In this document: in pieces, positions 3,729 to 23,275 of the stretch
Position numbering within the stretch: the first letter of the stretch is position 1
Layout of the letters: the number at the start of each line of letters is the position of its first letter
Virus record (IMG/VR): IMGVR_UViG_3300030506_000011
Location: 1 to 64,000 of that record
Source of the DNA: a virus
Length of the DNA: 64,000 nt
Direction: 5' to 3' (one strand)
Notes under the pieces: model-generated
Told to the model about the DNA's origin: nothing
The model's input: only the letters and a program-made list of their open reading frames with translations
Database searches by the model: none
Position numbers and translations under genes: made by a program

Positions 3729-3941
3729 ATGTTTCTATATCTTACACAAATCCTTAAAGAAGCTAATGAGTTTGGTTTCGCTAATCAACCAAATACAAGT
3801 TTTAGTAATACAAATCCAGCTCCACAATCAGCTTCATTACCTCCTCCTAATCCTGCCCCACGACCTAGTCCTGTTCCTAGTATTGGCGGTATGACACCTA
3901 ATATACAGACAAACAGCCCAGGGTTTACCAGAACTATATGA
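3729..3941 (+). CDS. Short Pro-rich protein (70 aa)
   Basis: The ATG at 3729 follows the previous stop by 4 bases, and the stop overlaps the next start as ATGA; this is preferred over an in-frame start about 60 bases upstream that lies inside the previous gene. The N-terminus MFLYLTQILKEANEFG resembles the short amphipathic leader of the neighbours and is followed by a Pro/Ser/Asn-rich disordered tail. It could be a linker or scaffold-like virion peptide. Confidence 0.5.
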   Translation: MFLYLTQILKEANEFGFANQPNTSFSNTNPAPQSASLPPPNPAPRPSPVPSIGGMTPNIQTNSPGFTRTI

Positions 3942-4849: not shown

Positions 4850-4853
4850 TTAA

Positions 4854-5156: not shown

Positions 5157-5159
5157 TAT

Positions 5160-5498: not shown

Positions 5499-5500
5499 TT

Positions 5501-7660: not shown

Positions 7661-7662
7661 TT

Positions 7663-8361
7663 GTGAACAATCATATAGATCCATTATATAGTTTGCCTAT
7701 TCCAAAGAATGTGCGTGGTTTTTTCGATCCAGAGAAGACTAGGGAATGGTTACATACTAAAGCCTTGGATTCTTTTCAGAAGAAGCTTAATACAATTGAA
7801 AGTCCAGCCTACAAACTAAAAGTAACAGACTTATCTTATAATGCTCCTGAACATTCTCCAACTTATAAAGAACAAAATAAGGCTATAATGGAGAAAAGAG
7901 ATTTGTCCACTCCATTACGAGGTACTTTTCAGATGATAGATAAGAAAACTGGTAATGTATTAGATACCAAAACTACAACTATCGCTCATATCCCCTGGCT
8001 TACTGAAAGGAATACAGTAATCTTACATGGTGCGGAATACTCAGTTGCACATCAACAACGTTTACTACCAGGTGTCTATACTCGTACTAAGGAATCTGGA
8101 GAAGCTGAAGCCCACATCAATGTCTTACCTGGAACTGGAGTAGGTGGCAAAGTAATTTTTTACCCTGACCGTGCATTATTCGTTTATCAAGTTGGAACTA
8201 CTCAAATTAAGCTATATGGATTACTTAAAGAAATGGGCGTATCTGATAGTGAGATGGAGAAAGTTTGGGGTTCTGAAATATTCAATAAAAATAAATCTCA
8301 ATATACTGGACTAGAATTTGATAAATTGTATAATAAAGTCATAGGTAATGAAGAAGAATAA
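7663..8361 (+). CDS. rpoB-N: RNA polymerase beta subunit, N-terminal fragment (232 aa)
   Basis: Residues 86-190 match the start of multisubunit RNA polymerase beta as it occurs in large phages: RGTFQMIDKKTGNVLD, then LTERNTVILHGAEYSV (cellular counterpart TERGTFIINGTERV) and RLLPGVYTRTKESGEAEAHI (counterpart RSPGVYF). The GTG start follows the previous stop by 2 bases. The protein stops at 232 residues, long before the fork, active-site and clamp regions. A later piece of beta is encoded on the minus strand at 21847-22533; the catalytic C-terminal part is not in the window. Whether the pieces assemble post-translationally, as the naturally split subunits of phiKZ-like phages do, is inferred. 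It shares an apparent operon with putative virion proteins, so packaging of the polymerase in the virion is possible. Confidence 0.8.
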   Translation: MNNHIDPLYSLPIPKNVRGFFDPEKTREWLHTKALDSFQKKLNTIESPAYKLKVTDLSYNAPEHSPTYKEQNKAIMEKRDLSTPLRGTFQMIDKKTGNVLDTKTTTIAHIPWLTERNTVILHGAEYSVAHQQRLLPGVYTRTKESGEAEAHINVLPGTGVGGKVIFYPDRALFVYQVGTTQIKLYGLLKEMGVSDSEMEKVWGSEIFNKNKSQYTGLEFDKLYNKVIGNEEE

Positions 8362-8373
8362 CTACTCAAATAT

Positions 8374-8658
8374 ATGTCGAACGAAACACAATTAGAACAG
8401 CAATTGAATGCTGAATGGAGAAAAACTATTAAAGATAATCTTGAAGAACTCAGGACTGGTCAAAAACAATTAGCTAAGGATATTACTGATATTAAGCTAA
8501 GTTGTGCTCAAGCAGATGAAGTAAAAAGTCTGAGAGAAAAGGTCGAAAAACTTGAATTATCTAAAGCTAAAACTACTGGAGTATTGGTAGCCGTAAATGT
8601 GATATTAATTTTTGCGGGCTGGTGTATTCAGACTTTACTGCTTGTACATCATAGTTAA
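8374..8658 (+). CDS. Coiled-coil protein with C-terminal membrane anchor (94 aa)
   Basis: Residues 1-65 are heptad-like and charged (for example LREKVEKLELSKAK); residues 70-90 form one membrane segment (VLVAVNVILIFAGWCIQTLL). This layout is seen in XhlA/haemolysin-type holin-associated proteins and many small phage membrane proteins, so a lysis accessory role is plausible but unproven. Its stop codon overlaps the stop of the convergent endonuclease gene in a TTAA palindrome. Confidence 0.6.
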   Translation: MSNETQLEQQLNAEWRKTIKDNLEELRTGQKQLAKDITDIKLSCAQADEVKSLREKVEKLELSKAKTTGVLVAVNVILIFAGWCIQTLLLVHHS

Positions 8659-9305
8659 GCAGGCCTTCTTCTTTCATTTCTTGGTAAGTTGAATTGTAGA
8701 TATTTCTCATACTTTCTAGTCAGTCCAATTCTGTCTTCTAGAAAGCCTTGATAAATATAGTTACCGAATTTATAACCACCACAAATGCTAGGTATAACTA
8801 TTCTAGAACCCTTATGTCCAGTTTTTTTATTAATCTCCCTCCCTATTCTATAATGAATCTCCATAGGTAATACTAATTTCTCAAAAGCAGACCAATCTTG
8901 AGTGTAGGGACCACAAATACTATAAGAACAATGACCATCTCTGGATATACAAAAACAACCATCCCCATCACTGTAACCCCTCCACCAGTAATGAGTTAGG
9001 TTTTCAGGTATAATGCTTAATATTGTAGGAGCTTGATCTTTACTTCTATAATTGTAACTAATTAATTTAGTTGCTAATTCTACACTACCTTTTTGAAAAC
9101 TCATTTGTAATTGCCCTGGTGGATTTGTTTTTTGTATATTTCTACGTATATTCCAATTCCAGGCTTTCATAAGTGTTGGTTCAATAATTACTGCATCAAC
9201 TTGTTTTATAGCTATTTTAATTTTATTTTCTTTAGATATAGACCCGTCGGCCCAGATAAATCCTAACGTATATGCTGTCTCTGCTGTTATATTAGTTAAA
9301 TCCAT
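8655..9305 (-). CDS. LAGLIDADG homing endonuclease, free-standing (216 aa)
   Basis: Two LAGLIDADG motifs are visible: AYTLGFIWADGSI near the N-terminus and YWWRGYSDGDGCF about 110 residues later, each with its catalytic acidic residue. This matches single-chain site-specific endonucleases that move themselves or their host introns. The start at 9305 is chosen over an ATG 48 bases upstream because a TTGACA lies exactly 35 bases before it and the first motif then falls at the expected position. The gene is opposite in direction to its neighbours and sits just beyond the rpoB N-terminal fragment, consistent with a role in fragmenting or invading that locus. Confidence 0.85.
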   Translation of the reverse strand: MDLTNITAETAYTLGFIWADGSISKENKIKIAIKQVDAVIIEPTLMKAWNWNIRRNIQKTNPPGQLQMSFQKGSVELATKLISYNYRSKDQAPTILSIIPENLTHYWWRGYSDGDGCFCISRDGHCSYSICGPYTQDWSAFEKLVLPMEIHYRIGREINKKTGHKGSRIVIPSICGGYKFGNYIYQGFLEDRIGLTRKYEKYLQFNLPRNERRRPA

Positions 9306-9334
9306 ATAATGACAGTACACATTAGCTACCACGC

Positions 9335-9340
9335 TGTCAA
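9335..9340 (-). promoter_or_regulatory. Promoter -35 element for the LAGLIDADG gene
   Basis: TTGACA on the minus strand (bases 9340 to 9335), followed after 17 bases by TACTGT, a weak -10, with the start codon 35 bases from the first T. It is one of several TTGACA elements predicting leaderless transcripts. Confidence 0.4.
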
Positions 9341-9360
9341 TATTATAGCGCATATATCTG

Positions 9361-9389
9361 TTGACTAAACTTATAATAATAGTTAATAT
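9361..9389 (+). promoter_or_regulatory. Promoter TTGACT-17-TAATAT with hairpin leader
   Basis: TTGACT (9361-9366), a 17-base spacer and TAATAT (9384-9389). The leader of about 45 bases contains AATAAAC/GTTTATT (9401-9407 with 9414-9420), a 7-bp hairpin just before the start at 9440, which might stabilise the mRNA. It drives the probable abundant structural gene. Confidence 0.5.
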
Positions 9390-9439
9390 AGAAATATACG
9401 AATAAACAATTATGTTTATTTTAACTAATTATACAATCT

Positions 9440-10573
9440 ATGTCAGACGCCTCTAGTATTAGAAGGACATCAGCAGTTTTAGCTCCAACTTCTGGTAATG
9501 CTAACCCTAAGCCTGGTACATTGCCTGGAGTTTTGACTCCTGGTTCACAACAAAATAACCCTGGTGGTACTGGCTTTGCTGGTGCTCAAGCCACAGCAGC
9601 TGGATTTTTTGCTGGTGGTATCAGATTTTGTTTAAATCCATCTGGGTATTATTTCACTTATACTGATACAAGTGGTATTAGTAGACTCCGTGAAACTGGT
9701 CAGGCTTACATTAATACAGGCACGCAGTGGACTCCAGTTGGTAACAATCCACTAGATATCAATGTCCCCCTCGCCGCTAATGCTATTGATCAATATGTTT
9801 ATGTAGCTGACCGTCCTTATAACGTATTGAGTGGTTCATTTGTATATACTACTCCTGGTGGCTCTTCTTGTGCACTTCAGTTAGGTGTATGTCCTTTCTC
9901 TCAAGGTATATTAGCTGGTGCTGGTACTATTACTACTACTAACTCTTCTGCTACTGTTAATGGTGTTAGTACTACATTTACTTCTGCACTAATTGGTTCC
10001 GCAATTTTCAGTCCTTCAGGTACTTATATTGGTACAGTCTCAGCTGTAGGTAGCACAACCTCTCTTACATTGGCTGTGGCTGCTTCTAATGCATGGGGTG
10101 GTGGTACTCAGGTATTGACTGGTTCTGCCTGGAATTACGGCCCTTATCTTACTGGTACTGGTAACCTTACTGCGTCTACTGCAACTTCTGCTGTGACTGT
10201 TACTGCTGCTGGTTTTGCTAGTTCTGTTACAGTTGGTAGTAACTTGTATGATCAATATGGTAGAACTCTTGGTGTGATTGCTTCCGTTAATAGTACTACA
10301 TCTCTTACTCTAACCGCCAATGCTGCTTTTAATGCAGCTGCTACAACTTGGTCATATAGCACCTTGTTTATTGGTGTGCCAGCTTATGGTACTAATGTGT
10401 TTACTGCTACCATCCCACTCACTGCAAGTCCGGGTATTGTACAAATTGGTACTTTGAATGCCACTATTGCTAATACTCAAATAACTACTGGACAGGCTTT
10501 GGCCCTTAGATTTACTGGTACTGTCACAGGTTTGGCTGGGTTGACTGGTACTGTTATCTTGCAACCTCAGTAA
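9440..10573 (+). CDS. Probable abundant virion surface protein (377 aa)
   Basis: Bounded by its own promoter and a strong terminator, as expected of a highly expressed single-gene unit. The N-terminus is disordered and Pro/Gly/Ser-rich; residues 55-140 form one domain; then come two copies of a roughly 65-residue module (about 155-225 and 230-305) with the pattern GTxTxTxSSxTVxGxxTTF...GxxIGTVxxVxSTTSLTL, a beta module common in phage structural proteins. Ala, Gly, Ser and Thr dominate. It could be a decoration, major tail or fibre protein; no diagnostic capsid fold can be claimed from sequence alone. Confidence 0.65.
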   Translation: MSDASSIRRTSAVLAPTSGNANPKPGTLPGVLTPGSQQNNPGGTGFAGAQATAAGFFAGGIRFCLNPSGYYFTYTDTSGISRLRETGQAYINTGTQWTPVGNNPLDINVPLAANAIDQYVYVADRPYNVLSGSFVYTTPGGSSCALQLGVCPFSQGILAGAGTITTTNSSATVNGVSTTFTSALIGSAIFSPSGTYIGTVSAVGSTTSLTLAVAASNAWGGGTQVLTGSAWNYGPYLTGTGNLTASTATSAVTVTAAGFASSVTVGSNLYDQYGRTLGVIASVNSTTSLTLTANAAFNAAATTWSYSTLFIGVPAYGTNVFTATIPLTASPGIVQIGTLNATIANTQITTGQALALRFTGTVTGLAGLTGTVILQPQ

Positions 10574-10592
10574 GCTATTTAATCTTATCACA

Positions 10593-10623
10593 AAGCAACC
10601 TATTTACTTAGGTTGCTTTTTTA
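10593..10623 (+). terminator. Strong rho-independent terminator
   Basis: AAGCAACC (10593-10600) pairs with GGTTGCTT (10611-10618) across a 10-base loop, followed by TTTTT. It terminates the structural gene directly upstream of a new TTGACA promoter. Confidence 0.85.
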
Positions 10624-10624
10624 T

Positions 10625-10656
10625 TTGACAACTTTCCTCTATTTTGAAATGATACT
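10625..10656 (+). promoter_or_regulatory. TTGACA promoter
   Basis: TTGACA at 10625-10630 lies immediately after a terminator and 36 bases before the ATG at 10661. The -10 is unclear: GATACT at 10651 is 20 bases away. A leaderless or nearly leaderless message is predicted. Confidence 0.45.
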
Positions 10657-10660
10657 AAAC

Positions 10661-10915
10661 ATGAATGAACAAGCTACGTTAGACACACCAGTGATACCTA
10701 ATTTTAAGATGTCGACTGAGCAGATAGTTAAGTTATTGCAGGGTTATTTGGCACAAGCAGATACTAGTTTAACTAGTTTACAATCTAATATAGATGATGC
10801 TACAAATAAATTGAATGAATGGAAGAGAATGCAGTTGATTATAGTAGGACAGAAACAATTGATACAAGATATACTAAGTAAGACGGTAGACACACCTAAA
10901 GAAGAGACTAAATAA
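10661..10915 (+). CDS. Hypothetical helical protein (84 aa)
   Basis: The ATG at 10661 is preferred over an in-frame upstream start because the upstream stretch contains the promoter and terminator tail. The protein is alpha-helical with a coiled-coil-like centre (SLTSLQSNIDDATNKLNEW) and no Cys. It sits between the abundant structural gene and the fibre genes, so it may be a small tail or fibre-attachment component. Unassigned. Confidence 0.6.
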   Translation: MNEQATLDTPVIPNFKMSTEQIVKLLQGYLAQADTSLTSLQSNIDDATNKLNEWKRMQLIIVGQKQLIQDILSKTVDTPKEETK

Positions 10916-10918
10916 ATT

Positions 10919-11113
10919 ATGGCTATAACGCTAAATGACACCAAGACTAGAATATACAACCTTTATATAGAACAGTTGGAAGCAGAGGAAGAAAAGAAAG
11001 CTACTAGTAAGATGCATTCAGAAAATATTAAACGGATTAAATCTGAAATTAAGGATATTCTGAATGAAGAAGCAGAAGTTGTAAAGAATGCTCAAAAGAG
11101 TATTGACGATTAA
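10919..11113 (+). CDS. Small coiled-coil protein (64 aa)
   Basis: Almost wholly charged helix (Glu/Lys-rich, for example IEQLEAEEEKKATSK) and no hydrophobic segment. It follows the previous gene by 3 bases and is closed by a terminator, making a two-gene unit. Possibly a small trimerisation or scaffolding protein; function not visible. Confidence 0.6.
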   Translation: MAITLNDTKTRIYNLYIEQLEAEEEKKATSKMHSENIKRIKSEIKDILNEEAEVVKNAQKSIDD

Positions 11114-11129
11114 ATAGATTGAAGTAATA

Positions 11130-11170
11130 TGAGGCTAGGCTATTTAATGTAGTTTAGCCTCATTTTATTT
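11130..11170 (+). terminator. Rho-independent terminator
   Basis: TGAGGCTA (11130-11137) pairs with TAGCCTCA (11155-11162), followed by TTTTATTT. Confidence 0.8.
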
Positions 11171-11172
11171 AT

Positions 11173-11553
11173 ATGATTGATATTTTAATTTCATACCTAT
11201 TATTAAGTGCAAGTATAGCCATGTTTTTAGTTATATGGTTTAATAATACTTTTGTTGAATATATGAATTTACTAAGATTGACTAAGTTCTTTTATATAGA
11301 AGAATACAATAATATTACTGTAGATGACCCTAGTTTGTCTTATCTAGAATATTTAGCTGCTAATCGGTCTAACTTCCTTGTAAAAATTATTAGTTGTCCC
11401 AAATGTATAGTAGTCTGGTTATCTATACTATTACATATTCCTATTATCGTATTTATAGATTTTCCTTTAATATTTATTCCTGTAAGTATATTTATAGCAG
11501 CTTACTTTAGTTTGCTAATGTACTATATTTTGGTTAAACTAATGAATAAATGA
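11173..11553 (+). CDS. Membrane protein with CPKC motif, DUF1360-like (126 aa)
   Basis: Three to four membrane segments: residues 3-23, about 69-83 and 85-120. Between them a conserved-looking CPKCIVVWLS motif (about 75-84) resembles the CPxC-VW element of DUF1360-type phage/Bacillus membrane proteins. It directly precedes the fibre genes with a 4-base overlap. The function of that family is unknown; in this position a membrane or lysis role is possible. Confidence 0.55.
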   Translation: MIDILISYLLLSASIAMFLVIWFNNTFVEYMNLLRLTKFFYIEEYNNITVDDPSLSYLEYLAANRSNFLVKIISCPKCIVVWLSILLHIPIIVFIDFPLIFIPVSIFIAAYFSLLMYYILVKLMNK

Positions 11554-13370
11554 GTAATAGTTTCATAGATAGCTTGATTGAGGTAACTAATTCTACTAAT
11601 CATCAAGCACAGTATATACCACAACCGTCTAGTAGTATTCCTAGTTCTGGATGTACTTTACCAGCATTGCTCACACCTCCTACTATCGGAGCAGTCACAC
11701 CACCATCTAATGTAAAAGCTTGTGTACCTTTATTCGTACAATTTCCATTAGTACCAGAACCCTTTCCATTACCTGAGAATTGCCCTTCAGGTATTTCATT
11801 TACTCCTAATACTCAAGCTATAGGGATATTAAATACTTCTGGAATGATTCCTTATACTTCTATTACTGTAGGTATAACTCCAGGAGTTGATGTTTGTCAT
11901 TTTAATTTAGACATCCCACCTACACTAATTATACCTTGCTATCCTACTGGTCCTTTATTTAGTGGAGTTTTACAGTTTAAGATGGTTGGTGATGGTTCTC
12001 CAATTGCAGATGATTTTTCATTAAGCACTACTAGAATTAGTGGAGATATAACCCAGCCTTGTACCTGGAATATTGATACTATAATAAATCTACCAACCCC
12101 TAATTGCGCAGCTGGTATTTCATTTCAGAGCAATGTAACGGTAAATCTAAATAATAGTACAGCTCTACCACCAGTAATAACATATTTATATTCAAGGGTT
12201 TATTCTATAGGACAGAGCATAATTGATACTAATGGAAATCTACAAACAGTCACTGCTATTACTGGTGATGGTACATCCGGTGTAACTGCTCCTACCTGGG
12301 CTATATCTGGTACTACTGTAGATCATAATGTTACCTGGACCATGTCTCAAGCATCAATAAGTAACTATGCTTATGTTGATGTTTTAAGTCAGTATGATTA
12401 TTATAGATTAATACATGGAATTCCCCCTACTACCAAAGATTGCGGTTCAGTATTGTTAGGTAATCTTGAATTAGGTATTGTTTGTCCATCAGGTTTAAGT
12501 GTAGGAGGTAGTGGGACAGCTACCTTTTTATTCCCTGGTGATATAGGTTATAGTGCTCCAGTAGGTGATCCAACTATTGCGTTATCTATTAGTTCTTGTA
12601 ATTTAAATTTTGGTATTACTAATATAAGTTTCCCGGCTTTAAAATGTGCTTCAGGTTATACAGCAAACGCAGTTTCAGTAACTAGTGTAAAGGATGTATT
12701 AGGAAATACAGTTAGTCAGACTGGTGGAGGAAATACACCTTTTCAAATAACCCCCTCAGCTTGTTTAGGATTATCAAATCTAGGTAATCTAATAGTTCCT
12801 GGTTGTGCTCCTGGTAATTTTGTTAATTGGTATTTAAATTCTTCTACTTCAGGTGGAACTACTACATTATCTATTTCTAGTGGTTCTCCTACTACTAGCA
12901 GCTATTTAACTGTAACTCCTACTACTTGTGGTATAACTCCTTCTGGTTCATTTTCATTTAGCAGTGCTTCAAGTTTAGGAATAACTGATGGTACTACAAG
13001 TTTAAGTAATGTATCTAATATTACTTTTAATGGAATGACAGTTGGAGGTACTAGTGGGGCAGCTACCGTAACTGGAACTAAGTTAACTGATGGCACTACT
13101 ACATTAAATGGGGCACAGATGCTTACTTTTGTAGGTGGTACTTTAAGTGGTACTACTTCCAGTGCTACAATTACAATAAGTCCAGCTGGTTCCGGGCTTA
13201 ATTATCGAGGAGTTTGGAGTGCATTATCTACTTATAATCTTAATGATGTTGCAGTATTAGGGGCAGGTACTTCGTCTGGTATGTATATATGTTTAATAAA
13301 TTCTAATACTAATAGTCCTGATACTGGTACTGGCTGGTTTCAAGCCTGTTCTTATGCTACCTGGTTATAA
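11550..13370 (+). CDS. Tail fibre/adhesin-like protein (606 aa)
   Basis: Beta-rich, Ser/Thr/Gly/Pro-rich protein with regularly spaced Cys. A recurring Cys-containing unit (for example LPENCPSGISF, PTPNCAAGISF, LKCASGY) appears at roughly 90-120-residue intervals. One module at about 205-270 has the pattern GQSIIDTNGNLQTV...APTW...DHNVTW, also found in the next gene. The C-terminal 60 residues (GVWSALSTYNLNDVAVL...YICL...WFQ) resemble a small carbohydrate-binding domain. Likely part of the host-recognition apparatus. Confidence 0.7.
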   Translation: MSNSFIDSLIEVTNSTNHQAQYIPQPSSSIPSSGCTLPALLTPPTIGAVTPPSNVKACVPLFVQFPLVPEPFPLPENCPSGISFTPNTQAIGILNTSGMIPYTSITVGITPGVDVCHFNLDIPPTLIIPCYPTGPLFSGVLQFKMVGDGSPIADDFSLSTTRISGDITQPCTWNIDTIINLPTPNCAAGISFQSNVTVNLNNSTALPPVITYLYSRVYSIGQSIIDTNGNLQTVTAITGDGTSGVTAPTWAISGTTVDHNVTWTMSQASISNYAYVDVLSQYDYYRLIHGIPPTTKDCGSVLLGNLELGIVCPSGLSVGGSGTATFLFPGDIGYSAPVGDPTIALSISSCNLNFGITNISFPALKCASGYTANAVSVTSVKDVLGNTVSQTGGGNTPFQITPSACLGLSNLGNLIVPGCAPGNFVNWYLNSSTSGGTTTLSISSGSPTTSSYLTVTPTTCGITPSGSFSFSSASSLGITDGTTSLSNVSNITFNGMTVGGTSGAATVTGTKLTDGTTTLNGAQMLTFVGGTLSGTTSSATITISPAGSGLNYRGVWSALSTYNLNDVAVLGAGTSSGMYICLINSNTNSPDTGTGWFQACSYATWL

Positions 13371-13373
13371 ATT

Positions 13374-16268
13374 ATGTCTGTAGCTCCTGGTAATAACTTT
13401 AAATTAACTGATTTACAAGCATTAGCAACTCAAGCTAATGCAGTCTCATCTACTAGTTTTGACTTGAGTACATTTTATTATGTGTATCCAATGTTTTATG
13501 ACTTAAGTAGTAATCCATATGGTTATCGTATTTGTGGTGCTTTTGCTTTAACTGCTAGAGGAAGTGGTTATGCTGTTGGAGATATAGTAGTTTCCCCAGG
13601 CTATACTACATATTTTGAAGTTGGTTCAGTAGATATTACTGGAGCTATTATAGGATTGGTAACTTATACTAATTCTGCCTTTTCTCCTTCCGGTGATCTG
13701 ACTACCACACCTCCATTCCCTTCATATACAGACCCTACTCCTGGCGCACTTAATACAGTAACTGGTTCTGGTACTGGAGCTACTATTACTTTTACTGTTA
13801 GTCAAGTAGGCCCTTCTCAAAATTATTCATTTCCAGACTATAATCCTGGTAATGGTTATTTTACCGATTTTTATCTTTGTTTTGGAGGTACTGGTTATAC
13901 TGCTGGCGATAATTTAACTTTGCCTGGAGCTAAGATAGTTGGTGGCAGTCCAGTTCCAGTACATGTTGTAAGTGTTGATGGTAGTGGCAAGATATTAACA
14001 TTCACATTACCTAATACTACTTATATAGGATTTCTTCAATACTTATCTAATACTCCACAATATTTAGCTGCTAGTGGTGGAACCGGTAGTGGGGCAACTT
14101 TTGGTGGTTTGTTTATAGTTCCTCAAAGACCTACTTGGCTAGCTGAACTAAATAGACTTCGTAGTGCTATTTGGGGGTTGAAGGATTTGGATGATTCTTT
14201 TACATTTATGAATGTTACTTCACCTTCATTATTGTGTGTTTCTGGACCCTGGCCTGTAGGTGGACCAAATGATAATTATGCAAGTACCTGGTTTTATTTT
14301 GAAGATACTGGTGGTGGAGCAACAGTTACAATTAGTAGTAATTTCCCTGGTAGTGGTGCACCTTTTTCTGCAGGTTTAAGAACTAATGCCGTTTGCAGTA
14401 TGCTTTTGTCAACGTTTCCACCATCACCATACTATTATCCAGTAACAACAAAGCAACGACAAGCCTTTGTGGTTGGTGGTGTTGATTCTCTCTTTGTTAG
14501 TGGGACCTTCCATATAACTGCGGAGTATGTGCGTGGAGGGACTGCTGTGATAACATACCCTGGACCAACCACAACCATTACACCCGATACAGTTGACCCT
14601 AATACGCTTTGGTCTGTAAATCTATCTCCTAGTGGTGGTTATAATGCATTTCCTGGTTCAGTTTCTTATTCTACATTGGTGGCTGATACAGGATTTTGTA
14701 GTATTGGGATTGTCGAAATTTCAATAGCGGTGAGCGCGACTCTAGCACCGGGGCGGTATGAACTTGAGGTGGACATACCACAATTACCGGATGACACATC
14801 AGTTCCTATAACCGGTACACAGACCACATATACACGCCTTTTCCCAAATGGCACTAACCCACTAGATGATGGCAGCGGCGGCAATGGAAAATTATTTGGC
14901 CCTGTCACAGCCAGTATTAGTTATAGTACAGCAGTTACAGCTTATGGAATTGATAATGCATGGCCAATTAAAAAGATAAACTTACCTGGTGATGGACTTT
15001 CTCACGGCCCAGGATTATTATTTGTGCAGGATATACCTAATAATAATTGGAATTCTGGAGCTGGCCCTACATTTCCTGCTATTACATATGATCCGGAAAA
15101 AATATTTGGTAATGGTTGGAGTATTGGTACTAGTAAGGCTGGATTTTGGTCTTCAATGTCACCTGCTATTAGTAGTTTAGCTATTCCTAGTTTAACTTCA
15201 ATGCCTTGGAATTTAACTAGAACTAAATATGCAGTAGCCGGTAATGCTACAGTAAATCCAATGCTACAAGGTGATTTGGCTCCTAACGGTTCAGGTATGT
15301 TTGGTGCTTATGCTCAAGTATCTAACTCATATAATCAACTCAGTCCAGTAGAAAGTCAATCCGAGCCTCCTAGTTGGGCTGCTTCTATATATTTTACGTC
15401 TGGATTTACAATTATAGATTCTAACGGTAATTATCAAACAGTATTTACAGGTGGTATATCTGGCGGTTCACATCCAGTTTGGTCTGGGGCATTTGGTGGA
15501 TCTACTACTGATAATGGAGTGGTATGGCATTGTTCTAAAGTATTTACTGCACCGGCTACTACTTGGATAGCTAGTACAGTATTTCAATCAGGACAAACTA
15601 TAATAGATTCTAACGGTAATATTGAAACTGCTCAAAATACCGGTACTAGTAATTCATCAGCACCTGCCTGGCCTGGAACTTTAGGAGGTACAGTAACTGA
15701 TAATACTATAACCTGGAAATTTACTTCTCGTTATCAAGCTTTCCAACCAGGCCAACATAGAATCCCACCACTTCCTAGATACCCTGTTTATTGGTATAGT
15801 GAGACAATTCCTAGAATGATGCCCCCTACACTTACTAGCGGTAATACTATTTGGGGAGCTTATGATCAGTGGCAATATAATACTTATAATTCTCCTAGCT
15901 TTGATCAAGGTTGGCATCAAGTAGGTCCTACTGATACACCAGCTAAAGGAAAAGCTTATGGTTGGTGGATATATAGTGTATCTATTAATAGAATAGCTAG
16001 TACTGCTGGAACCGTAGCTGTAACTTTAGGATGTATTAGAAGTAGTGTATTTAGTCCATTTGCAACTTATAATACTGGTACAACTAATCAAGTTCTTTGG
16101 CCCATATTTACAAGTGATGCCTTAGTATATCAATGTAGTGAAAGAGTTGATGTTCAAGCATTAGCTATTGCTTCTACTAATAGTGTATCTCAAGGTCAAG
16201 TAGTACAATCTCCTATATGTGCAGCATTTGTTACCGATACTTCAGCTTTAATATCGCTAATAACTTAA
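13374..16268 (+). CDS. Large tail fibre/adhesin-like protein (964 aa)
   Basis: Multi-domain beta-rich fibre protein. Two GxGYxxGD modules (about 60-105 and 165-210: ARGSGYAVGDIVV, GGTGYTAGDNLTL) are typical of phage fibres. Two later modules (about 675-725 and 735-785) have the pattern IIDSNGNxQT...PxW...TDNxVxW seen in the preceding gene. The middle (about residues 335-510, bases 14380-14900) uses visibly more G/C-rich codons than the rest, suggesting a recently exchanged receptor-binding segment. Confidence 0.7.
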   Translation: MSVAPGNNFKLTDLQALATQANAVSSTSFDLSTFYYVYPMFYDLSSNPYGYRICGAFALTARGSGYAVGDIVVSPGYTTYFEVGSVDITGAIIGLVTYTNSAFSPSGDLTTTPPFPSYTDPTPGALNTVTGSGTGATITFTVSQVGPSQNYSFPDYNPGNGYFTDFYLCFGGTGYTAGDNLTLPGAKIVGGSPVPVHVVSVDGSGKILTFTLPNTTYIGFLQYLSNTPQYLAASGGTGSGATFGGLFIVPQRPTWLAELNRLRSAIWGLKDLDDSFTFMNVTSPSLLCVSGPWPVGGPNDNYASTWFYFEDTGGGATVTISSNFPGSGAPFSAGLRTNAVCSMLLSTFPPSPYYYPVTTKQRQAFVVGGVDSLFVSGTFHITAEYVRGGTAVITYPGPTTTITPDTVDPNTLWSVNLSPSGGYNAFPGSVSYSTLVADTGFCSIGIVEISIAVSATLAPGRYELEVDIPQLPDDTSVPITGTQTTYTRLFPNGTNPLDDGSGGNGKLFGPVTASISYSTAVTAYGIDNAWPIKKINLPGDGLSHGPGLLFVQDIPNNNWNSGAGPTFPAITYDPEKIFGNGWSIGTSKAGFWSSMSPAISSLAIPSLTSMPWNLTRTKYAVAGNATVNPMLQGDLAPNGSGMFGAYAQVSNSYNQLSPVESQSEPPSWAASIYFTSGFTIIDSNGNYQTVFTGGISGGSHPVWSGAFGGSTTDNGVVWHCSKVFTAPATTWIASTVFQSGQTIIDSNGNIETAQNTGTSNSSAPAWPGTLGGTVTDNTITWKFTSRYQAFQPGQHRIPPLPRYPVYWYSETIPRMMPPTLTSGNTIWGAYDQWQYNTYNSPSFDQGWHQVGPTDTPAKGKAYGWWIYSVSINRIASTAGTVAVTLGCIRSSVFSPFATYNTGTTNQVLWPIFTSDALVYQCSERVDVQALAIASTNSVSQGQVVQSPICAAFVTDTSALISLIT

Positions 16269-16310
16269 TTGAATTGACTGGTATATCAAGTTTGTGTTAG
16301 AGTTGGAATT

Positions 16311-16904
16311 ATGGAAACATCTAATGCGATTGATTATAATTCTTGTACTGTTTTAAGAGGAGCCCAACACACTGAAACTTGTGAAGCTCATGGTGTTTAT
16401 ACTGCTAGATGTATAGACTCTAATAATAATTTAATTTGGGAAGATACTATAGATAATGTAGTTAATACTGAAGGTAAAAACCTGGCTTTTAATACATTTT
16501 TAAACGGCTCTGCTTATACTGTTACTGGGCCTTATATGGGTTTAATTAGTTCAGTATCTTATTCTACCGTAGCTGCTGGTGATACAGCTGCTCAAATTAA
16601 TGGTACTAATGGTTGGAAGGAAGCAGGTTCCAGCACTAATTATCCATTATACACTACTCCTAGAAAAACTTGTGCCTGGTCTGCTGCTTCTGCTGGTTCG
16701 ATTTCACTTTCCGCAGCTCTAAGTTTTCCTATTATCACTACTGGTGGTACAGTTAAAGGATGTTTTATTATCTTTGGCTCTGGTGCTTCGTCCACTATTG
16801 CTAATACTTCAGGTACTCTTTGGTCTGCTGGTCTATTCTCAGGTGGTGATAAGATTGTTAACCCTGGTGATACAATTCAAGTATCATATAGTACTAGCAT
16901 GTAA
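16311..16904 (+). CDS. Small tail-fibre-associated protein (197 aa)
   Basis: Beta-rich protein with an ordered central region (NTEGKNLAFNTFLNGSAYTV, then GPYMGLISS) and a C-terminus ending GDKIVNPGDTIQVSYSTSM. This looks like a widespread small protein found beside fibre genes in environmental phages; the C-terminal half resembles a jelly-roll-like fibre tip. It lies in the fibre block, 4 bases from the next gene. The preceding 42 bases contain no clear signal. Confidence 0.6.
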   Translation: METSNAIDYNSCTVLRGAQHTETCEAHGVYTARCIDSNNNLIWEDTIDNVVNTEGKNLAFNTFLNGSAYTVTGPYMGLISSVSYSTVAAGDTAAQINGTNGWKEAGSSTNYPLYTTPRKTCAWSAASAGSISLSAALSFPIITTGGTVKGCFIIFGSGASSTIANTSGTLWSAGLFSGGDKIVNPGDTIQVSYSTSM

Positions 16905-16907
16905 TAT

Positions 16908-19900
16908 ATGGCTTTTGATGCCCATTCAAATCTAGCAATATCACAAGTAGCCACTGCTCCATCACCACCTACTTCTGGTACTTCACTAACTGTAACTACT
17001 GGTCAGGGTGCATTATTTCCTACTCCCCCATTTAATTGCACTGTCTGGCCTTCAGGTGTTATACCTACTACAGTTAATGCTGAGATTATTAGGGTTACTG
17101 CAGTTGCCACTGATACATTTACTATAACTAGAGCACAAGAAGGAACATCTGCTGTATCTATTGCTGTAGGATACCAAATAGCCAATACTGTTACTAAAAA
17201 GGTAGTTACAGATATTGAAAATGCAATTCCTACTACGTTACCTCCTAATGGTTCTGCTAGCGGTGATTTATCAGGTAGTTATCCAGGTCCTACAGTAGCA
17301 AAGATTAACGGCACTTCTTTAGCAGGATTAGCTACAGGGTTATTAAAGAATACTACTGGTACTGGTGTTCCTAGTATTGCAGCGTCTGGTGATTTGCCTG
17401 GTGGGCCATATTTAGGTGCTACTGCCTCTGCTTCTGGTGATTTATCAGGTAGTTATCCAGGTCCTACAGTAGCAAAGATTAACGGTACTTCATTAGCAGG
17501 TCTTGCTACCGGTATACTTAAAAACACTACTGGTACTGGTGTTCCTAGTATTGCAGCGTCTGGTGATTTGCCTGGTGGACCTTATCAAACGACAGCATCT
17601 TATGGTGTGTTAGGGTTTTCTTCAGTAGCTACAGCTGGAAGTACAACTACATTAAGTGGATCAGCTACTAATTATATAATTTTTACTGGTACATTAACTC
17701 AGATTTGTGTACTACCTAATGCCACTACACTTTCTAATGGGGCGTCATTCTTTATTGATAATAGTTCAACTGGAGCTGTTACTGTAAATATGAATGGTGG
17801 AACTACTTTATGGATTGTAGGAGCTGGAGCATTTTTAGAGTTAGTATTAACTAGTAATGGAACTTCAGCTGGTACCTGGAATACTCAATATTTTGGTAGT
17901 ACGGTATCAACAGGAAAAGTCATTAACTTAGCTGATAATTTAACATCAGTAGCCAATACTCCAGGGGTATTTCAGAATGATGGAAGTGGTAATATATCTT
18001 ACGGTCCACCACCACCTACTATAACCCAACTTGATCTTTGGGGACATTCCTGGCTTGATAATATAGTTTATATTACTGGCGCAAATCAAATTACTGATCC
18101 TGCTGAAATATTAAATAACGTACTTACAAATGCTTTGGGAATTTCTCAAGATAGAGTAAGAAATCATGCTAGGAGTGGTGCAAACCTTACGTCTCAAGGA
18201 TGTTTAATGGGCGGTTATATGAGGTTTTTAACTGAAATAACTCGTACCAAAAAATATTCTCCATTTTATCGACAAGGTGGTTTATCTGTAATTATATATG
18301 GTATTAATGATTTAGGTAATAATACATCAGCTAATCAATCATTAATGCGCTCAGTATTTTCGCAAGCCTTAACCATGGCTATTAGTAGAATAAGAGCTTC
18401 AGCTATTTTTCCTTGTGGCACTGGGTTAGCTCAATGGGCTTTTGGTACTAATTATGCAGCCGGTCCAGTAGCTAACCTTGAGTGGATGTCTACTGTTGGA
18501 ATGCAAGCAACAGTAGTAGATTCTGGTGGTACTTCTACAGCAACTTTCACCATTCCATTTGGCTATAAAGGAGAACCAATAGGATTTCTATTAGTTGGTA
18601 CTTCCGGAGCAACTTCAGGTATTGTTACTTGGGGTGGAAATATTACTGGAACTAGTGGTATTATTGGAACTACTACCACTTTAAACTCTACTTCCATAGA
18701 TGCTCATGGACCTGTATTCGTTAGATGGACTTCTGGTACTAATGGATTATCAGCTGCTAATGCTGGTCAGACTATTACTATCAAGGTAACTACTGCGAGT
18801 GGGACAGTACAATTAGATTCAGCCTGGATTGAATCTCTTAAACCAAATCCTGTAGTTGTAGCCAATGTATATCAATGTGATTGTAGAACTATTACTTACG
18901 CTTTAGGGGATGGGGTAACTTCTGGTGTTACTACTTCTTTTACTTCTGGTTCAGCCAATTTTAATTCAAGTACTGATGCTGGAAATTCAATAACTGAGAC
19001 TGATGCTCAAGGTGCTTTTACTTCTGGTAAGACTATTTCATCTGTAACTAATGCAACCACCATAGTATTATCAGGAAATGCTACTGGTGCTTTTACATCC
19101 ATTAAATATACTTTTGGGCGTATTTTAAACGGTTACGCTAATTATGCTACTAATACAGATTTTAGTGGGGCAACTCCAGCTAGTCATAGTGCAGCAGACA
19201 CAGATTTACAAAATTTAAATAGCACAATTACTACAGTAGTTAATTCATTCGATTCAATGGTTCAATTAGCTGACGTAAATACAGCTATGGGGATTGGTGG
19301 AACTGGAACTCTGCCTACTAACGTCTATACAACATCTGCTGATGGTTATCATCCTAATGCGGTTGGAGCAGCTTTGGCAACTAATGCTATATTTGCTGCT
19401 ATTAAGAAGCTAGTACCTGTTGCTGATGGTTTAGGGACTCTAGGTGTATTAGAGACACAGACTCCACAAGGTTATCCAGTCGCTCCTAAACGAAATATTA
19501 TTCGTCCTGGTAGTAATGTTTATTTACCTGAATTTGGTGTTTGGGGTGCTACATATACTGCAGTTGCTGGTGATACGTTTGCTATTCCTTTCTGGGTATC
19601 AGAAGGTGGGGCTAATATTACTGCATTCCAAGTACAACAAACCAATGCTCCTGCTACAGCTGGATCTAACGTAAGATTTGGTATTTATGATGATACTATG
19701 TTTACAGGTTATCCTTGTAACCTTAGATATGAAGTTACATCAGGCGGTGCATTTGCGATGGGAACTACTGCAGCTATAAAGACTATTGGAACTAATACTT
19801 TTGGATGGCTACGATCAGGACTTTATTGGCAAGTATTTAAGATAGATTCCCTCGGTACAACTGCTAGTATAGTTAATACAATTGGAGGTCCTAGTCCGTA

Positions 19901-20060
19901 TATGCCACAGTGGTTGGCCGCTGGTGGTACTGCTTCACCTATTGCTTGGAAAGTAACTAGTGTAGCTGCTGGTGCTTTACCTAATGAATTTAGTGCATTA
20001 GCTGCTGGTACTGCAGTTACTACAGCTCCAGCTGTAGGAATGACAATAACTGTAACATAA
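16908..20060 (+). CDS. Tail fibre with SGNH esterase domain (1050 aa)
   Basis: The N-terminal domain (about 1-110) resembles tail-fibre attachment regions. Two near-identical 58-residue repeats (about 118-225) of GDLSGSYPGPTVAKINGTSL type follow. Residues about 365-830 form an SGNH/GDSL-like hydrolase: block I DLWGHSWLDN (Ser in GHSWL), block III YGINDLGNN, block V SADGYHPNAVG with the Asp-x-x-His pair. A beta insertion splits the domain. The C-terminal 200 residues are a separate beta domain. Such domains deacetylate or de-esterify surface polysaccharide, so this is probably a receptor-modifying fibre. Confidence 0.75.
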   Translation: MAFDAHSNLAISQVATAPSPPTSGTSLTVTTGQGALFPTPPFNCTVWPSGVIPTTVNAEIIRVTAVATDTFTITRAQEGTSAVSIAVGYQIANTVTKKVVTDIENAIPTTLPPNGSASGDLSGSYPGPTVAKINGTSLAGLATGLLKNTTGTGVPSIAASGDLPGGPYLGATASASGDLSGSYPGPTVAKINGTSLAGLATGILKNTTGTGVPSIAASGDLPGGPYQTTASYGVLGFSSVATAGSTTTLSGSATNYIIFTGTLTQICVLPNATTLSNGASFFIDNSSTGAVTVNMNGGTTLWIVGAGAFLELVLTSNGTSAGTWNTQYFGSTVSTGKVINLADNLTSVANTPGVFQNDGSGNISYGPPPPTITQLDLWGHSWLDNIVYITGANQITDPAEILNNVLTNALGISQDRVRNHARSGANLTSQGCLMGGYMRFLTEITRTKKYSPFYRQGGLSVIIYGINDLGNNTSANQSLMRSVFSQALTMAISRIRASAIFPCGTGLAQWAFGTNYAAGPVANLEWMSTVGMQATVVDSGGTSTATFTIPFGYKGEPIGFLLVGTSGATSGIVTWGGNITGTSGIIGTTTTLNSTSIDAHGPVFVRWTSGTNGLSAANAGQTITIKVTTASGTVQLDSAWIESLKPNPVVVANVYQCDCRTITYALGDGVTSGVTTSFTSGSANFNSSTDAGNSITETDAQGAFTSGKTISSVTNATTIVLSGNATGAFTSIKYTFGRILNGYANYATNTDFSGATPASHSAADTDLQNLNSTITTVVNSFDSMVQLADVNTAMGIGGTGTLPTNVYTTSADGYHPNAVGAALATNAIFAAIKKLVPVADGLGTLGVLETQTPQGYPVAPKRNIIRPGSNVYLPEFGVWGATYTAVAGDTFAIPFWVSEGGANITAFQVQQTNAPATAGSNVRFGIYDDTMFTGYPCNLRYEVTSGGAFAMGTTAAIKTIGTNTFGWLRSGLYWQVFKIDSLGTTASIVNTIGGPSPYMPQWLAAGGTASPIAWKVTSVAAGALPNEFSALAAGTAVTTAPAVGMTITVT
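17262..17585 (+). repeat. Two 174-base direct repeats in the fibre gene
   Basis: Units starting at 17262 and 17436 are nearly identical, each encoding GDLSGSYPGPTVAKINGTSL plus about 30 further residues. The near identity at DNA level suggests recent duplication or gene conversion. Confidence 0.85.
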
Positions 20061-20064
20061 TGAA

Positions 20065-21828
20065 ATGTTTGGCTCTTCATACTTTGGAGAAGGTTATTTT
20101 GGTGGCGATCCTCCATTACCAGATAGGGTAATTGAGGCAGCTAGTGCAGTTGATTCAGTTAGTGGTATAGCAGTATATAATGTTTCCGTAACAGAAACAG
20201 CTTCAGCTTCAGATTCAGTTGATTTAGCAGGTACAGTTTCAGTAACTTTCGGTGGTTTTTATCTCGCTCAGAATCAATTTGCTGGTGGTACAGCAATTCC
20301 TACTTCTCAAACTTATCTAGTTAGTGTAAGTGAATCAGCTTCAGCTCTAGATAGCCCTTCTAGTATAGCTGTATATGGAGCAAGTGATAGTGAATCTGCA
20401 TCTGCTACTGATACTCCTAGTTCTACTGCTATATATCCAGGTTCTACTACAGAATCAGGTAGTGCAGTAGATAGTCCTTCTGTTAATGCTATATTTGCTG
20501 CAAGTACTTCAGAAAGTGGTACAGCAACTGACAATCCTTCAGCTAATTCTACTCTTCAAGCTAGTACTAGTGAATCTAATAGTGCAGTAGATAGTCCTAG
20601 TTCAACAGCTACATTTGCAGGGTCCATAACTGAGTCTGCTTCAGCTCTAGATAGTCCAGCTGGCGGTTATTTAGTAACTATATCTGAATCTGCTTCAGCT
20701 ACAGAGTCACCCTCAGCTAATGATTTATTAGCAGCAACAGTATCAGAAAGTGGTTCAGCTTCAGATAATCCTAGTGCTAATGCTTTATTTGCAGGAAGTG
20801 TAACTGAATCTGCTAGTGCTTCTGATAACCCTTCTGCTAATGCTATATTTGCAGGTTCAGTAAGTGAAGCTGCTAGTGCTTCTGATAGTCCTTCATCTAC
20901 TGCTAAATACAGTGTAAGTATTAGTGAATCTGGTAGTGCAACAGATTCTCCTTCAGCTAATTCTACCCTACAAGCTAGTGTAACAGAATCAGCTTCAGCT
21001 CTAGATAGTATAGTTGGTGGTTATTTAGTAACTATAACAGAATCAGGAACAGCAACGGATAATCCTAGTTCTACTGCTATATATGCATGTTCTACTACAG
21101 AATCAGGTAGTGCAGTAGATAACCCTTCAGCCAATGATTTATTAGCAGCTTCTATCACAGAATCAGTTACCACAATTGATACTCCTAGTTCTACTGCTAA
21201 TTATAGTGTAACTATATCAGAGTCAGTCTCAGCTAATGACAATCCTTCAGCCAATGATTTATTAGCAGCTTCTATTACGGAGTCAGGCAGTGCTTCTGAT
21301 AGTCCTAGCTCAACTGCTACTTATCAAGTTAGTATAAATGAGTCAGGAACAGCCCTAGACAGCCCTACAGCTAATTCTACACTATTAGCTAGTATATCAG
21401 AGTCAGTCTCAGCTAATGATACTCCTACAGCTAATGATTTATTAACAAGTTCTATTACAGAGTCAGGTAGTGCAAGTGATTCTAGTTCAGCTTCAGTACT
21501 ATTCAATACTTCTATTACTGAAACAGCTTCAGCCTTGGATAGTTTATCAGCTATTATAAGTTCTATAAATAGTGAGTCTGAAAGTGCCTCAGCTATAGAT
21601 AATACTGATGCCACACTATTAACTCTAGCTAGTGTATTAGAATCTATTACCGCAATTGATACAGCTTCAACTAATGCCCCACCTATTATTTATAGTGTAA
21701 ATGTATTAGAAGCAGCCTTGGCTTTAGACAGTAATATCAACAATAACCCATTTGTTGAAGGTGTGATTAATAAGAAATTTATAAGTAGATTTCCGGTTCG
21801 AAAATCTAAATTATTGGCGAATGTTTAA
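20065..21828 (+). CDS. Ser/Ala-rich repeat fibre protein (587 aa)
   Basis: The N-terminus MFGSSYFGEGYFGG is typical of a phage structural protein. From about residue 25 to 560 it is built of roughly 25-residue repeats of the type SxSESxSAxDSPSANxxLxA, more than twenty in number and degenerate. Highly acidic and Ser-rich, with no Cys apart from one stray residue. Probably an extended, flexible stalk or surface-decorating fibre. The C-terminal 25 residues become basic (FISRFPVRKSKLLANV). It ends convergently 18 bases from the minus-strand rpoB fragment. Confidence 0.7.
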   Translation: MFGSSYFGEGYFGGDPPLPDRVIEAASAVDSVSGIAVYNVSVTETASASDSVDLAGTVSVTFGGFYLAQNQFAGGTAIPTSQTYLVSVSESASALDSPSSIAVYGASDSESASATDTPSSTAIYPGSTTESGSAVDSPSVNAIFAASTSESGTATDNPSANSTLQASTSESNSAVDSPSSTATFAGSITESASALDSPAGGYLVTISESASATESPSANDLLAATVSESGSASDNPSANALFAGSVTESASASDNPSANAIFAGSVSEAASASDSPSSTAKYSVSISESGSATDSPSANSTLQASVTESASALDSIVGGYLVTITESGTATDNPSSTAIYACSTTESGSAVDNPSANDLLAASITESVTTIDTPSSTANYSVTISESVSANDNPSANDLLAASITESGSASDSPSSTATYQVSINESGTALDSPTANSTLLASISESVSANDTPTANDLLTSSITESGSASDSSSASVLFNTSITETASALDSLSAIISSINSESESASAIDNTDATLLTLASVLESITAIDTASTNAPPIIYSVNVLEAALALDSNINNNPFVEGVINKKFISRFPVRKSKLLANV

Positions 21829-21846
21829 GAAGCCCTCTTCTTTCAT

Positions 21847-22533
21847 TTAGTATTCAGGGATTAATACTTGTTTATCTAGAATTTCTTTGTGACTCATCCA
21901 TTTAAGTTTTCCGTGCTTATCCTTCATAATCCTATATAAATTACAATCTGCTCCTTTAGCTACATTTTGATTTATATAATTAGTAACACCTATCTTCGTG
22001 TTTTCTGCAATATGAACGGGATCATAAAAGCCAAAACTAGAAGGACTTACATTTCTAGATTCATCTGGTATTGCTGACTCTGATACAATTCCTCCCTGCC
22101 CCATCTTAGTTACTTTATGACTATTATCAAAGTGTTCTAATGGATTAATACCTTCAACGTTATTAGCTAAAGGATTTCCTACAATAACCGACCTGACTTG
22201 CTGAGAGAAGAAACCAGGAGTAAGCCAGTTAAGATTCTTTTTCATTTGCATTTTATAAGCTGCTTTTTGTTGTATTTTACCTGCATCCTTATTTATATGG
22301 TCGGCTATAAAATCCTCTAGTCCCATAAATTTGGAGAATTTAAGGTTATCTCGATCATCACCTTCAACCTCACCTTTATTAATCTTAATTAATTTTGCTG
22401 AACTAGCTAATAAGACTTGGGGACTTATTTTATCCTCATCTACTCCAATATTATTCTTAACAATATCTTTATCTAGGGAGGTATGATTTAACCATTCCTT
22501 AAATTTAGTTAGTTTCTCGGTTCTAGTTAACAT
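21847..22533 (-). CDS. rpoB-M: RNA polymerase beta subunit, middle fragment (228 aa)
   Basis: Residues about 105-200 correspond to the fork/Rpb2 domain 3 region of beta: NPLEHFDNSHKVTKMGQGG (cellular NPLSELTHKRRLSALGPGG), VSPSSFGFYDPVHIAENTKI (cellular [20 protein letters not shown]) and GVTNYINQNVAKG. EVEGDDRDNLKF near residue 55 matches the conserved DDRD element. The protein starts approximately where the fragment at 7663-8361 ends in beta order, and stops (IPEY) before the nucleotide-binding and catalytic C-terminal half. Beta is therefore carried as at least three separate cistrons on both strands, or this is a relic; the reading frame is intact, favouring function. Confidence 0.82.
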   Translation of the reverse strand: MLTRTEKLTKFKEWLNHTSLDKDIVKNNIGVDEDKISPQVLLASSAKLIKINKGEVEGDDRDNLKFSKFMGLEDFIADHINKDAGKIQQKAAYKMQMKKNLNWLTPGFFSQQVRSVIVGNPLANNVEGINPLEHFDNSHKVTKMGQGGIVSESAIPDESRNVSPSSFGFYDPVHIAENTKIGVTNYINQNVAKGADCNLYRIMKDKHGKLKWMSHKEILDKQVLIPEY

Positions 22534-22534: not shown

Positions 22535-23275
22535 TTAATTCTGTACTTGTATAAGGTCAGCTACTAATTGATCCATATTAAACCCGGAAGGAGATAAACC
22601 AGTATTATTAATCCAATCCTGACTAATCAATGCATAAGCTTCCTCAGTCCTATTAGTCACCCAATCATAAGTAGCGGATTGTACAGCACCCCAAGTAATA
22701 TATTCAAAAGTATTCTCTGAAAATGAAAATGATGGTATGGCATGTCCTCCAATTATATTCCCAGTAGTATATTGCCAGGTAGTTATGCCACTTTCCACAG
22801 CATTCATATCATCCTCAGTCAAATCAACCCCAGTATAAACCCCTCCAAATAACCAGATAGCTATTTTTAGATGAAGTATATTCTTAGGATTAACACTTAC
22901 GAATGCCCCTATCTTATGATTAGCAATACCTGTAGTTTGCCAGTACTTCAATACCTCAAGTTCAACTGCTCCATTATCAGTAGCAGGATTATTAGGAGTA
23001 TAGCCAGTAATTGCTTCATAGGCTCTTAATACATCATCATTAGTAGGTGTGATGAGTGTAGAACTATTTGCAGTCCAGTTCATAATATAGTGAGCGGCAG
23101 CAGCACAAGTACAAATTCCTAGACTATCATTGAGAAACATCTGATAAGGGTTATTACCTATTTTAGCCCACCAATTAATAGAAGTTGGTGGTATTAGTGT
23201 AGGAGCTAAATACTTTTCTAGTTTAAGCGCCCTCTTATCAAATACAGCCTTATTACGTCCTAATTTATAGTTCAT
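22535..23275 (-). CDS. Papain-like cysteine peptidase-related protein (246 aa)
   Basis: Starts with a basic stretch and a domain whose core reads LNDSLGICTCAAAAHYIMNW (about 48-67, candidate nucleophile Cys), followed about 110 residues later by IIGGHAIPSFSF (candidate catalytic His) and then EYITWGAVQSA, a pattern of C1/C39-type peptidase folds seen in phage and bacterial proteins. No signal peptide. It is 1 base upstream of the rpoB middle fragment in the same minus-strand unit. Possible roles are prohead or fibre processing or an effector; the family placement is from motif order only. Confidence 0.55.
   Translation of the reverse strand: MNYKLGRNKAVFDKRALKLEKYLAPTLIPPTSINWWAKIGNNPYQMFLNDSLGICTCAAAAHYIMNWTANSSTLITPTNDDVLRAYEAITGYTPNNPATDNGAVELEVLKYWQTTGIANHKIGAFVSVNPKNILHLKIAIWLFGGVYTGVDLTEDDMNAVESGITTWQYTTGNIIGGHAIPSFSFSENTFEYITWGAVQSATYDWVTNRTEEAYALISQDWINNTGLSPSGFNMDQLVADLIQVQN

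Follow-up and report, generated by a model that had tools for sequence, protein, structure and literature searches.

The stretch of DNA analyzed here, called the window, comprises positions 1 to 64,000 of the IMG/VR virus record IMGVR_UViG_3300030506_000011 (G000; 87,504 bases) and encodes two pieces of the beta subunit of an RNA polymerase (RNAP) as separate genes on opposite strands. This arrangement very probably arose by fission within a phage polymerase in which beta was fused to part of beta', the three resulting beta chains co-assembling non-covalently. While RNAPs of several chains are already known from phages, a beta subunit in three dispersed pieces with a cut inside the lobe is new. 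The two pieces in the window, termed bN and bM, are as follows:

7663..8361, plus strand: bN, N-terminal piece of RNAP beta (protrusion start and first part of the lobe), 232 amino acids (aa), GTG start
21847..22533, minus strand: bM, middle piece of beta (lobe end, return strand of the protrusion, fork/Rpb2 domain 3), 228 aa

A sequence-only reading of the window had described these fragments as intact frames lying 13.5 kilobases (kb) apart and inverted, which was confirmed: both frames are open, both end with TAA, and bM starts with ATG.

Two pieces of one beta subunit

In tblastn searches of 50,697 phage records, bN matched five records (best E 7e-15) and bM four (best E 1e-22); Arash and three Vibrio phages match both pieces alike, and one short faecal record matches bN additionally. 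On gp206 of Arash (1525 aa), bN aligns to residues 12-227 and bM to residues 240-469, and on D69_0261 of Vibrio phage D69 (1527 aa) the respective residues are 36-222 and 231-458, leaving a gap of 8-12 residues. The two pieces are consecutive on one protein of Arash and of D69 and are therefore neighbouring pieces of beta, in agreement with the sequence-only reading, according to which bN ends near where bM begins in beta order.

The product of bM matches Pfam family PF04565 (RNA_pol_Rpb2_3) above the family cut-off (E 1.1e-05), as do all members of the bM alignment (40/40, including the bM of the window). Searching the PDB with the bM profile yielded 48 distinct sequences at E <= 0.01 (best 2.8e-14), all of which are RNAP chains, one named only 'DNA-directed RNA polymerase' and the remainder beta; the best match spans residues 417-583 of 7mkn_C, equivalent to 419-585 in the 1342-residue Escherichia coli beta. 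No Pfam match was obtained for bN at E up to 1, hence the evidence for its identity comes from its phage relatives and from searches of the PDB by profile and by fold. The profile search, run at a threshold of E 10 and including some unrelated proteins among its weakest rows, gave 8h3v_A residues 65-243 as the best RNAP beta match (E 2.3e-12). The beta chains recovered with the two profiles are of the bacterial type. An AlphaFold model of bN, built from 38 sequences, has a mean predicted local distance difference test score (pLDDT) of 79.4, and all 50 listed Foldseek matches of this model belong to RNAP entries, the best being beta chains (7e-11). Re-alignment of the model gave Z scores up to 8.0 (root-mean-square deviation 14.4 over 199 residues) and, for the Mycobacterium tuberculosis beta chain, a Z score of 7.8 (3.4 Å over 110 residues), with the warning of the tool that values of Z < 8 may reflect a common arrangement alone.

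The cut between bN and bM lies within the lobe (beta2) domain, close to the site of the E. coli insert beta-i4. The protrusion is made of strands that precede and follow the lobe, which would require bN and bM to pair. For E. coli beta, deletion of residues 226-350 caused very mild or no defects in vitro and growth defects in vivo, as stated in the accessible part of PMC2939025.

The remainder of the enzyme and the recurrence of the split

Catalytic beta sequence, noted earlier as absent from the window, is missing from the whole record as well, as the catalytic beta domain PF00562 was not detected in any of the 87,504 bases of G000. The proposed search for the remaining beta and beta' parts located them in IMGVR_UViG_3300030508_000015 (G002; 151,189 bases), a near-identical overlapping record in which positions 73739-100000 (the end of the stretch compared) correspond to window positions 1-26262 at 99.99% identity. 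The pieces are also present in two more divergent records, G003 (134,588 bases; parts 73-78% identical to those of the window and G002) and G008 (67,825 bases; 48% identity for bN and 53% for bM):

G002 81401-82099, plus strand: bN
G002 95585-96271, minus strand: bM
G002 57238-60033, minus strand: beta-C/beta'-N, 931 aa
G002 55485-57206, minus strand: frame of 573 aa
G002 50816-53155, minus strand: beta'-C, 779 aa
G003 29367-30065, minus strand: bN
G003 22176-22859, plus strand: bM
G003 48509-51466, plus strand: core beta-C/beta'-N, 985 aa, uninterrupted
G003 53801-55711, plus strand: beta'-C, 636 aa, uninterrupted
G008 26511-27206, plus strand: bN
G008 38789-39478, minus strand: bM
G008 13293-16316, plus strand (the same as bN): core

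As G002, G003 and G008 each encode bN, bM and the beta-C/beta'-N fusion by a gene of its own, beta takes at least three cistrons, as had been predicted, and the core of these three records is devoid of exactly the regions supplied by bN and bM. Separate bN and bM genes on opposite strands were found in all seven records that hold both, which represent five lineages, namely the window and the IMGVR records 30508 (G002), 30044, 49830 (G003), 47552 (G004), 49712 (G005) and 42261 (G008), with the orientation of the core gene relative to bN and bM varying between records. That bN and bM abut in beta order is what a simple break would leave, and a chimeric assembly or a local inversion artefact could in principle have split one beta gene in this contig. 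However, because the same opposite-strand layout of two genes, each with its own start and stop, recurs across five lineages and seven records, with identity as low as 48-53%, assembly error is ruled out as the source of the split, and an artefact retains next to no probability.

A search of six records, each of which is either incomplete or of unknown completeness, revealed neither a complete rpoB elsewhere nor any second beta gene; in these records each polymerase piece is present in at most one copy, and PF00562 gives one match each in G001, G002, G003 and G008 and none in G000 and G005.

Between the window/G002 and G003, the proportions of nonsynonymous and synonymous differences (pN/pS) are 0.147/0.84 for bN, 0.153/0.91 for bM, 0.149/0.81 for beta-C/beta'-N and 0.182/0.86 for beta'-C, resulting in ratios of 0.17-0.18 for the first three and 0.21 for beta'-C, which are rough due to the saturation of synonymous sites and safe in their direction alone. 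By this measure all parts are under similar purifying selection, and bN and bM evolve like the catalytic part. Internal stops are absent from bN and bM of the five lineages, the lysines of the beta motif GDK..GxKG are kept, and the catalytic motif DxDGD is kept and uninterrupted in G003 and G008. The pieces could alternatively be decaying remnants in a phage that now uses the host RNAP, and the interruption of the beta' catalytic loop in the population of the window (discussed below) might mean such a loss of function; this is nevertheless very unlikely in view of the low ratios, the lack of internal stops and the intact loop of G003 and G008. It has also to be considered that bN and bM are now independent proteins, such as structural parts or decoys for the host polymerase, that act outside any enzyme, as the genes around bN form a row of virion type, while bM stands by itself, antisense to the genes about it. 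However, both genes are kept in five of five lineages, they match exactly what the three cores lack, and their rates of change are similar to that of the core, which makes independent roles highly improbable.

Fused relatives and other divided polymerases

Arash (gp206 and gp216) and D69 (0261 and 0264) are homologous to the window clade in all five segments, namely N, M and C of beta as well as beta'N and beta'C, but they contain N, M, C and beta'N in one chain of 1525-1527 aa, whereas in the window clade N and M are separate opposite-strand genes and the core starts after M. Judged by the tree described below, the window clade belongs to the Arash/D69 family by descent, not by architecture. 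The nearest relatives found are this group, with beta fused to part of beta', and not the phiKZ-like phages. Among cellular enzymes, archaeal and cyanobacterial RNAPs have one split per subunit, outside the lobe. A large subunit encoded by a pair of genes is described for archaeal B''/B' and cyanobacterial gamma/beta' in the accessible part of PMC7598289.

The RNAPs of the phiKZ/AR9 type resemble the window clade in having beta and beta' in several assembling chains, as far as the accessible parts of the sources describe them (PMC7598289; PMC8287921), but their beta is in two pieces, compared to three in the window clade, where the third is fused to beta'N. They also comprise virion and non-virion RNAP sets; no second PF00562 copy was found in the records searched here, which are incomplete or of unknown completeness. 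The statement of the sequence-only reading that phiKZ-like RNAPs are broken less finely therefore holds for beta and fails for the enzyme as a whole, as the core of the virion RNAP has at least five polypeptides, with beta in two (PMC7598289, accessible part). The mReC phages of Weinheimer and Aylward (2020) are tailed and have beta and beta' related to the cellular ones, as is the case here; no three-way beta split is described in the accessible part of PMC7481178. A literature search of titles and abstract openings, with few subscription journals, found no three-piece beta and no intein in a phage RNAP. E. coli beta can be reconstituted from fragments, and a literature search for this found nothing.

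Profiles of the five segments were run on the open reading frames (ORFs) of 96 loci (L048-L143, several loci per contig). In 84 loci a single ORF spans N and M and reaches at least the beginning of C; by hand count these loci correspond to 71 distinct IMG/VR contigs with near copies among them. Beta is joined to beta'N up to the Asp-triad region in 23 of these fused loci, beta' is cut at about position 205-241 of the beta'N segment in 43, a single beta-beta' chain of 2055-2146 aa is present in eight, and ten are cut short by the contig end or, in L051/L128, by an intron. The remaining 12 loci consist of six from the window clade (L048, L117-L121), L126, and five distant ones (L139-L143), in which N was undetected by the profiles used and M and C share one ORF in four of five. 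The exception, L143, is a distant phage relative with beta M and C in separate tandem ORFs (6511-9042 and 9728-11776).

Two apparent further fissions were rejected. In L126 (8633-13153), in-frame stops occur at 9131, 11522, 11792 and 13151, all of them TGA, and two of these four codons stand where Arash and D69 have Trp; under code 4 there is one open beta/beta' chain, so that this phage contig seems to read TGA as Trp and a second, tandem fission does not apply. In L051/L128 the cut is due to a group I intron that comes with an endonuclease-like ORF: the beta gene of this fused relative is interrupted at L051 10846-11127 by the intron (Rfam RF00028, 107.7 bits), and an HNH-like ORF comes after it. 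Beta-C of L049 and L050 contains insertions of about 355 and 150 aa, respectively, at the same place in beta, with a LAGLIDADG match in L049 and an intein match below the cut-off in L050. Among the fused relatives surveyed, none showed an intron or intein at precisely the bN/bM boundary.

A tree was computed from 51 rows, comprising 44 of the 84 fused loci, five split rows (one of them bM only), Arash and D69, after dropping near copies at a similarity ratio of 0.85; the tree was rooted at the midpoint for drawing, with a warning from the tool that long branches meet (L049 with L122, and L129 with a large group). The five split rows cluster together (100/100), nested in a set (95/92) that also contains the fused L049, L050 and L122. 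On this tree the fission is best read as one derived event, which is the simplest reading, with the reverse direction formally possible; the fused state would be ancestral because all other rows are fused and cellular beta is one chain.

Inteins, gene surroundings and proposed assembly of the enzyme

In the population of the window, two inteins or intein-like elements were recognized in beta':

G002 55485-57206 and 57238-60033 (L042 11485-13206 and 13238-16033), minus strand: intein of LAGLIDADG type, spread over two frames at the beta' Asp triad
within G002 50816-53155 (L042 6816-9155), minus strand: 144-aa mini-intein in beta'-C, ..ALN/CLAEGT...LIVHN/SKHKGG.. (boundaries at the slashes)

The 931-aa protein of G002 ends with ..VFKGYGAD and a 13-aa tail that begins with Ser, SIVDYIIYREKIN, followed by a stop, and the 573-aa frame begins 31 bases after this stop. 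The latter frame contains a LAGLIDADG domain (PF14528, 8.4e-08) and a weak intein-splicing similarity below the cut-off (PF14890, 2.7e-06), and its intein ends with ..YTKN just before SDGDQLN.., the beta' catalytic motif; a hypothetical joined product GYGAD-SDGDQLN would have the same length as GFGADNDGDQLN of G003. As three other contigs of the same population match G002 without mismatch over 4701, 4701 and 4079 bases, the interrupted beta' is not an error of one assembly. Since the N-part of atypical split inteins has about 15-25 aa (PMC12707363, accessible part), the 13-aa tail could be such an N-part. The alignments, however, look as if the intein starts near residue 17-20 of the 573-aa frame: the alignment with NF011491, a model of archaeal RNAP in which an intein seems to be included, begins at residue 17 (1.1e-14), a stretch SATTT.. 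stands at residue 20, and the match to PF14890 begins at residue 55 with position 40 of the profile. An intein start inside the second frame would mean either that this frame is self-splicing, with the loop split over two chains, or that the intein is inactive, which makes trans-splicing less probable. TIGR01445 gave no match for the two-frame intein; a scan for relatives returned just four contigs, all of the same population, 17 phage records match parts of the protein only, and a PDB search gave two chance-level matches.

The mini-intein shows by eye Cys1, a block B His and a C-terminal His-Asn before Ser, and splicing is predicted only; it matches TIGR01443 (E 0.0016; 18.7 bits compared to a cut-off of 15.6) and is absent from the beta'-C homologs of G003 and G008. 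By the layout of E. coli beta', its site is the trigger-loop region. It is conceivable, albeit rather doubtful, that the polymerase becomes competent only after its separate chains have met and two splicing events have occurred, both of them in catalytic elements, one in trans by a split intein with the 13-aa N-part, by which the loop of the Asp triad would be restored, and one in cis by the mini-intein at the trigger loop, the precursor then comprising five polypeptides. Inteins and a group I intron elsewhere in the RNAP genes of this phage group also raise the question of whether a split intein or a trans-spliced intron rejoins bN, bM and beta-C at the RNA or protein stage; yet bN and bM end within a few residues of the homologous positions with no intein-like tail discernible by eye, and no Rfam match in the window attains the gathering score of its family, hence a rejoined beta is very unlikely.

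The genes around bN and bM in the window are:

3938..7660, plus strand: row of six genes directly upstream of bN, no PHROG match
8362..21846, no strand assigned: bN-bM interval of 13.5 kb with small genes, a homing endonuclease and then tail-fibre-like genes
8655..9353, minus strand: LAGLIDADG-type homing endonuclease close to bN; phrog_4645 (endonuclease), E 1.5e-20, and weak LAGLIDADG Pfam matches
22535..23275, minus strand: gene of 246 aa, upstream of bM by one base; function unknown (phrog_19005, E 1.3e-33)

The upstream row is mostly syntenic in G003, G004 and G005 and partly in G008, the tail-fibre matches (PHROG) sit downstream of bN, and bM stands at the far end of the bN gene row on the opposite strand in five of five lineages. 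The interval measures 13.5 kb in the window, 6.5 in G003, 7.0 in G004, 6.1 in G005 and 11.6 in G008, and the window genes at 13374-21828 have no blastp counterpart in the corresponding interval of the four other lineages. The endonuclease has no counterpart at its place in G003, G004, G005 and G008, with one 27% match elsewhere in G008, which leaves it unsupported as the cause of the bN/bM break. The sequence-only reading had called the neighbor of bM a peptidase; a papain-like Cys/His pattern was seen by eye only, and the product has a weak GAD-like Pfam match, no NCBIfam match and no family match that names a peptidase. This gene adjoins bM only in the window lineage and G003, and beyond it lie MazG-like, dCMP deaminase and ribonucleotide reductase genes.

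Among the virion proteins of Arash, gp206 ranks first in detection (3516 spectra) and gp216 (beta') fifth (1210 spectra), and the virion also contains the sigma factor gp10 (467 spectra), as given in the accessible part of PMC10585845. By homology with Arash, the one member of the family for which packaging is reported, the enzyme of the window may be a virion RNAP. No sigma factor was found in G000; G001, G002 and G003 gave weak matches below the cut-off for regions 2 and 4, and G008 for region 4 only, and a clear match is confined to the fused relative G010. A 220-aa frame at about 16097-16594 (minus strand) of G002, with below-cut-off similarity to sigma-70 region 2 and then region 4, is a candidate divergent sigma factor. 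A genome scan for a host gave seven distant loci (25-26% identity; Sedimentibacter, Tissierellia, Firmicutes), none of which links a host.

Several observations weigh against fission followed by co-assembly. AlphaFold gave a poor model for bM by itself (mean pLDDT 59.6), for which Foldseek listed no match at E <= 0.001; its 50 listed matches are RNAP or transcription-complex entries, and this fold search carries little weight. The co-assembly and activity of the split-clade chains are predictions from sequence, the saturated synonymous sites belong here as well, and an intact beta might lie outside the records, which are incomplete or of unknown completeness. If the interrupted beta' loop were not restored, the enzyme of the window's population would be dead. 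The midpoint root gives no direction, so that the ancestral status of the fused state draws on the other grounds given above, and the authors of the Arash study point to high expression as another possible reason for the presence of RNAP in virions (PMC10585845, accessible part).

Fission with non-covalent co-assembly remains very probable, and would have proceeded from an ancestor as in Arash/D69, in which beta continued in frame into the first part of beta' (about 1500 aa) and the C-terminal part of beta' was a separate protein. In the window lineage, beta would have been cut in the lobe domain, with few residues between bN and bM, and a second time after the fork domain, between bM and beta-C/beta'-N, and the two freed pieces would have come to lie in or beside the tail-gene region, bM inverted relative to bN, with all pieces staying under selection. 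Presumably bN and bM pair into lobe and protrusion and dock non-covalently on the beta-C/beta'-N and beta'-C chains, and the enzyme, by homology with Arash, may be packaged in the virion and start early transcription. The cause of the fission could be the activity of a mobile intron, intein or homing endonuclease, followed by rearrangement; intron mobility is one proposed origin of the split of phage RNAPs (PMC7598289, accessible part).

These findings suggest that the lobe and protrusion of beta can be built from two chains that are encoded far apart. A one-chain phage polymerase appears to have turned into an enzyme of many pieces, with fused relatives and the split clade within one family, and as mobile introns, inteins and homing endonucleases occur in or beside the same RNAP genes, this family lets the origin of such splits be tested.

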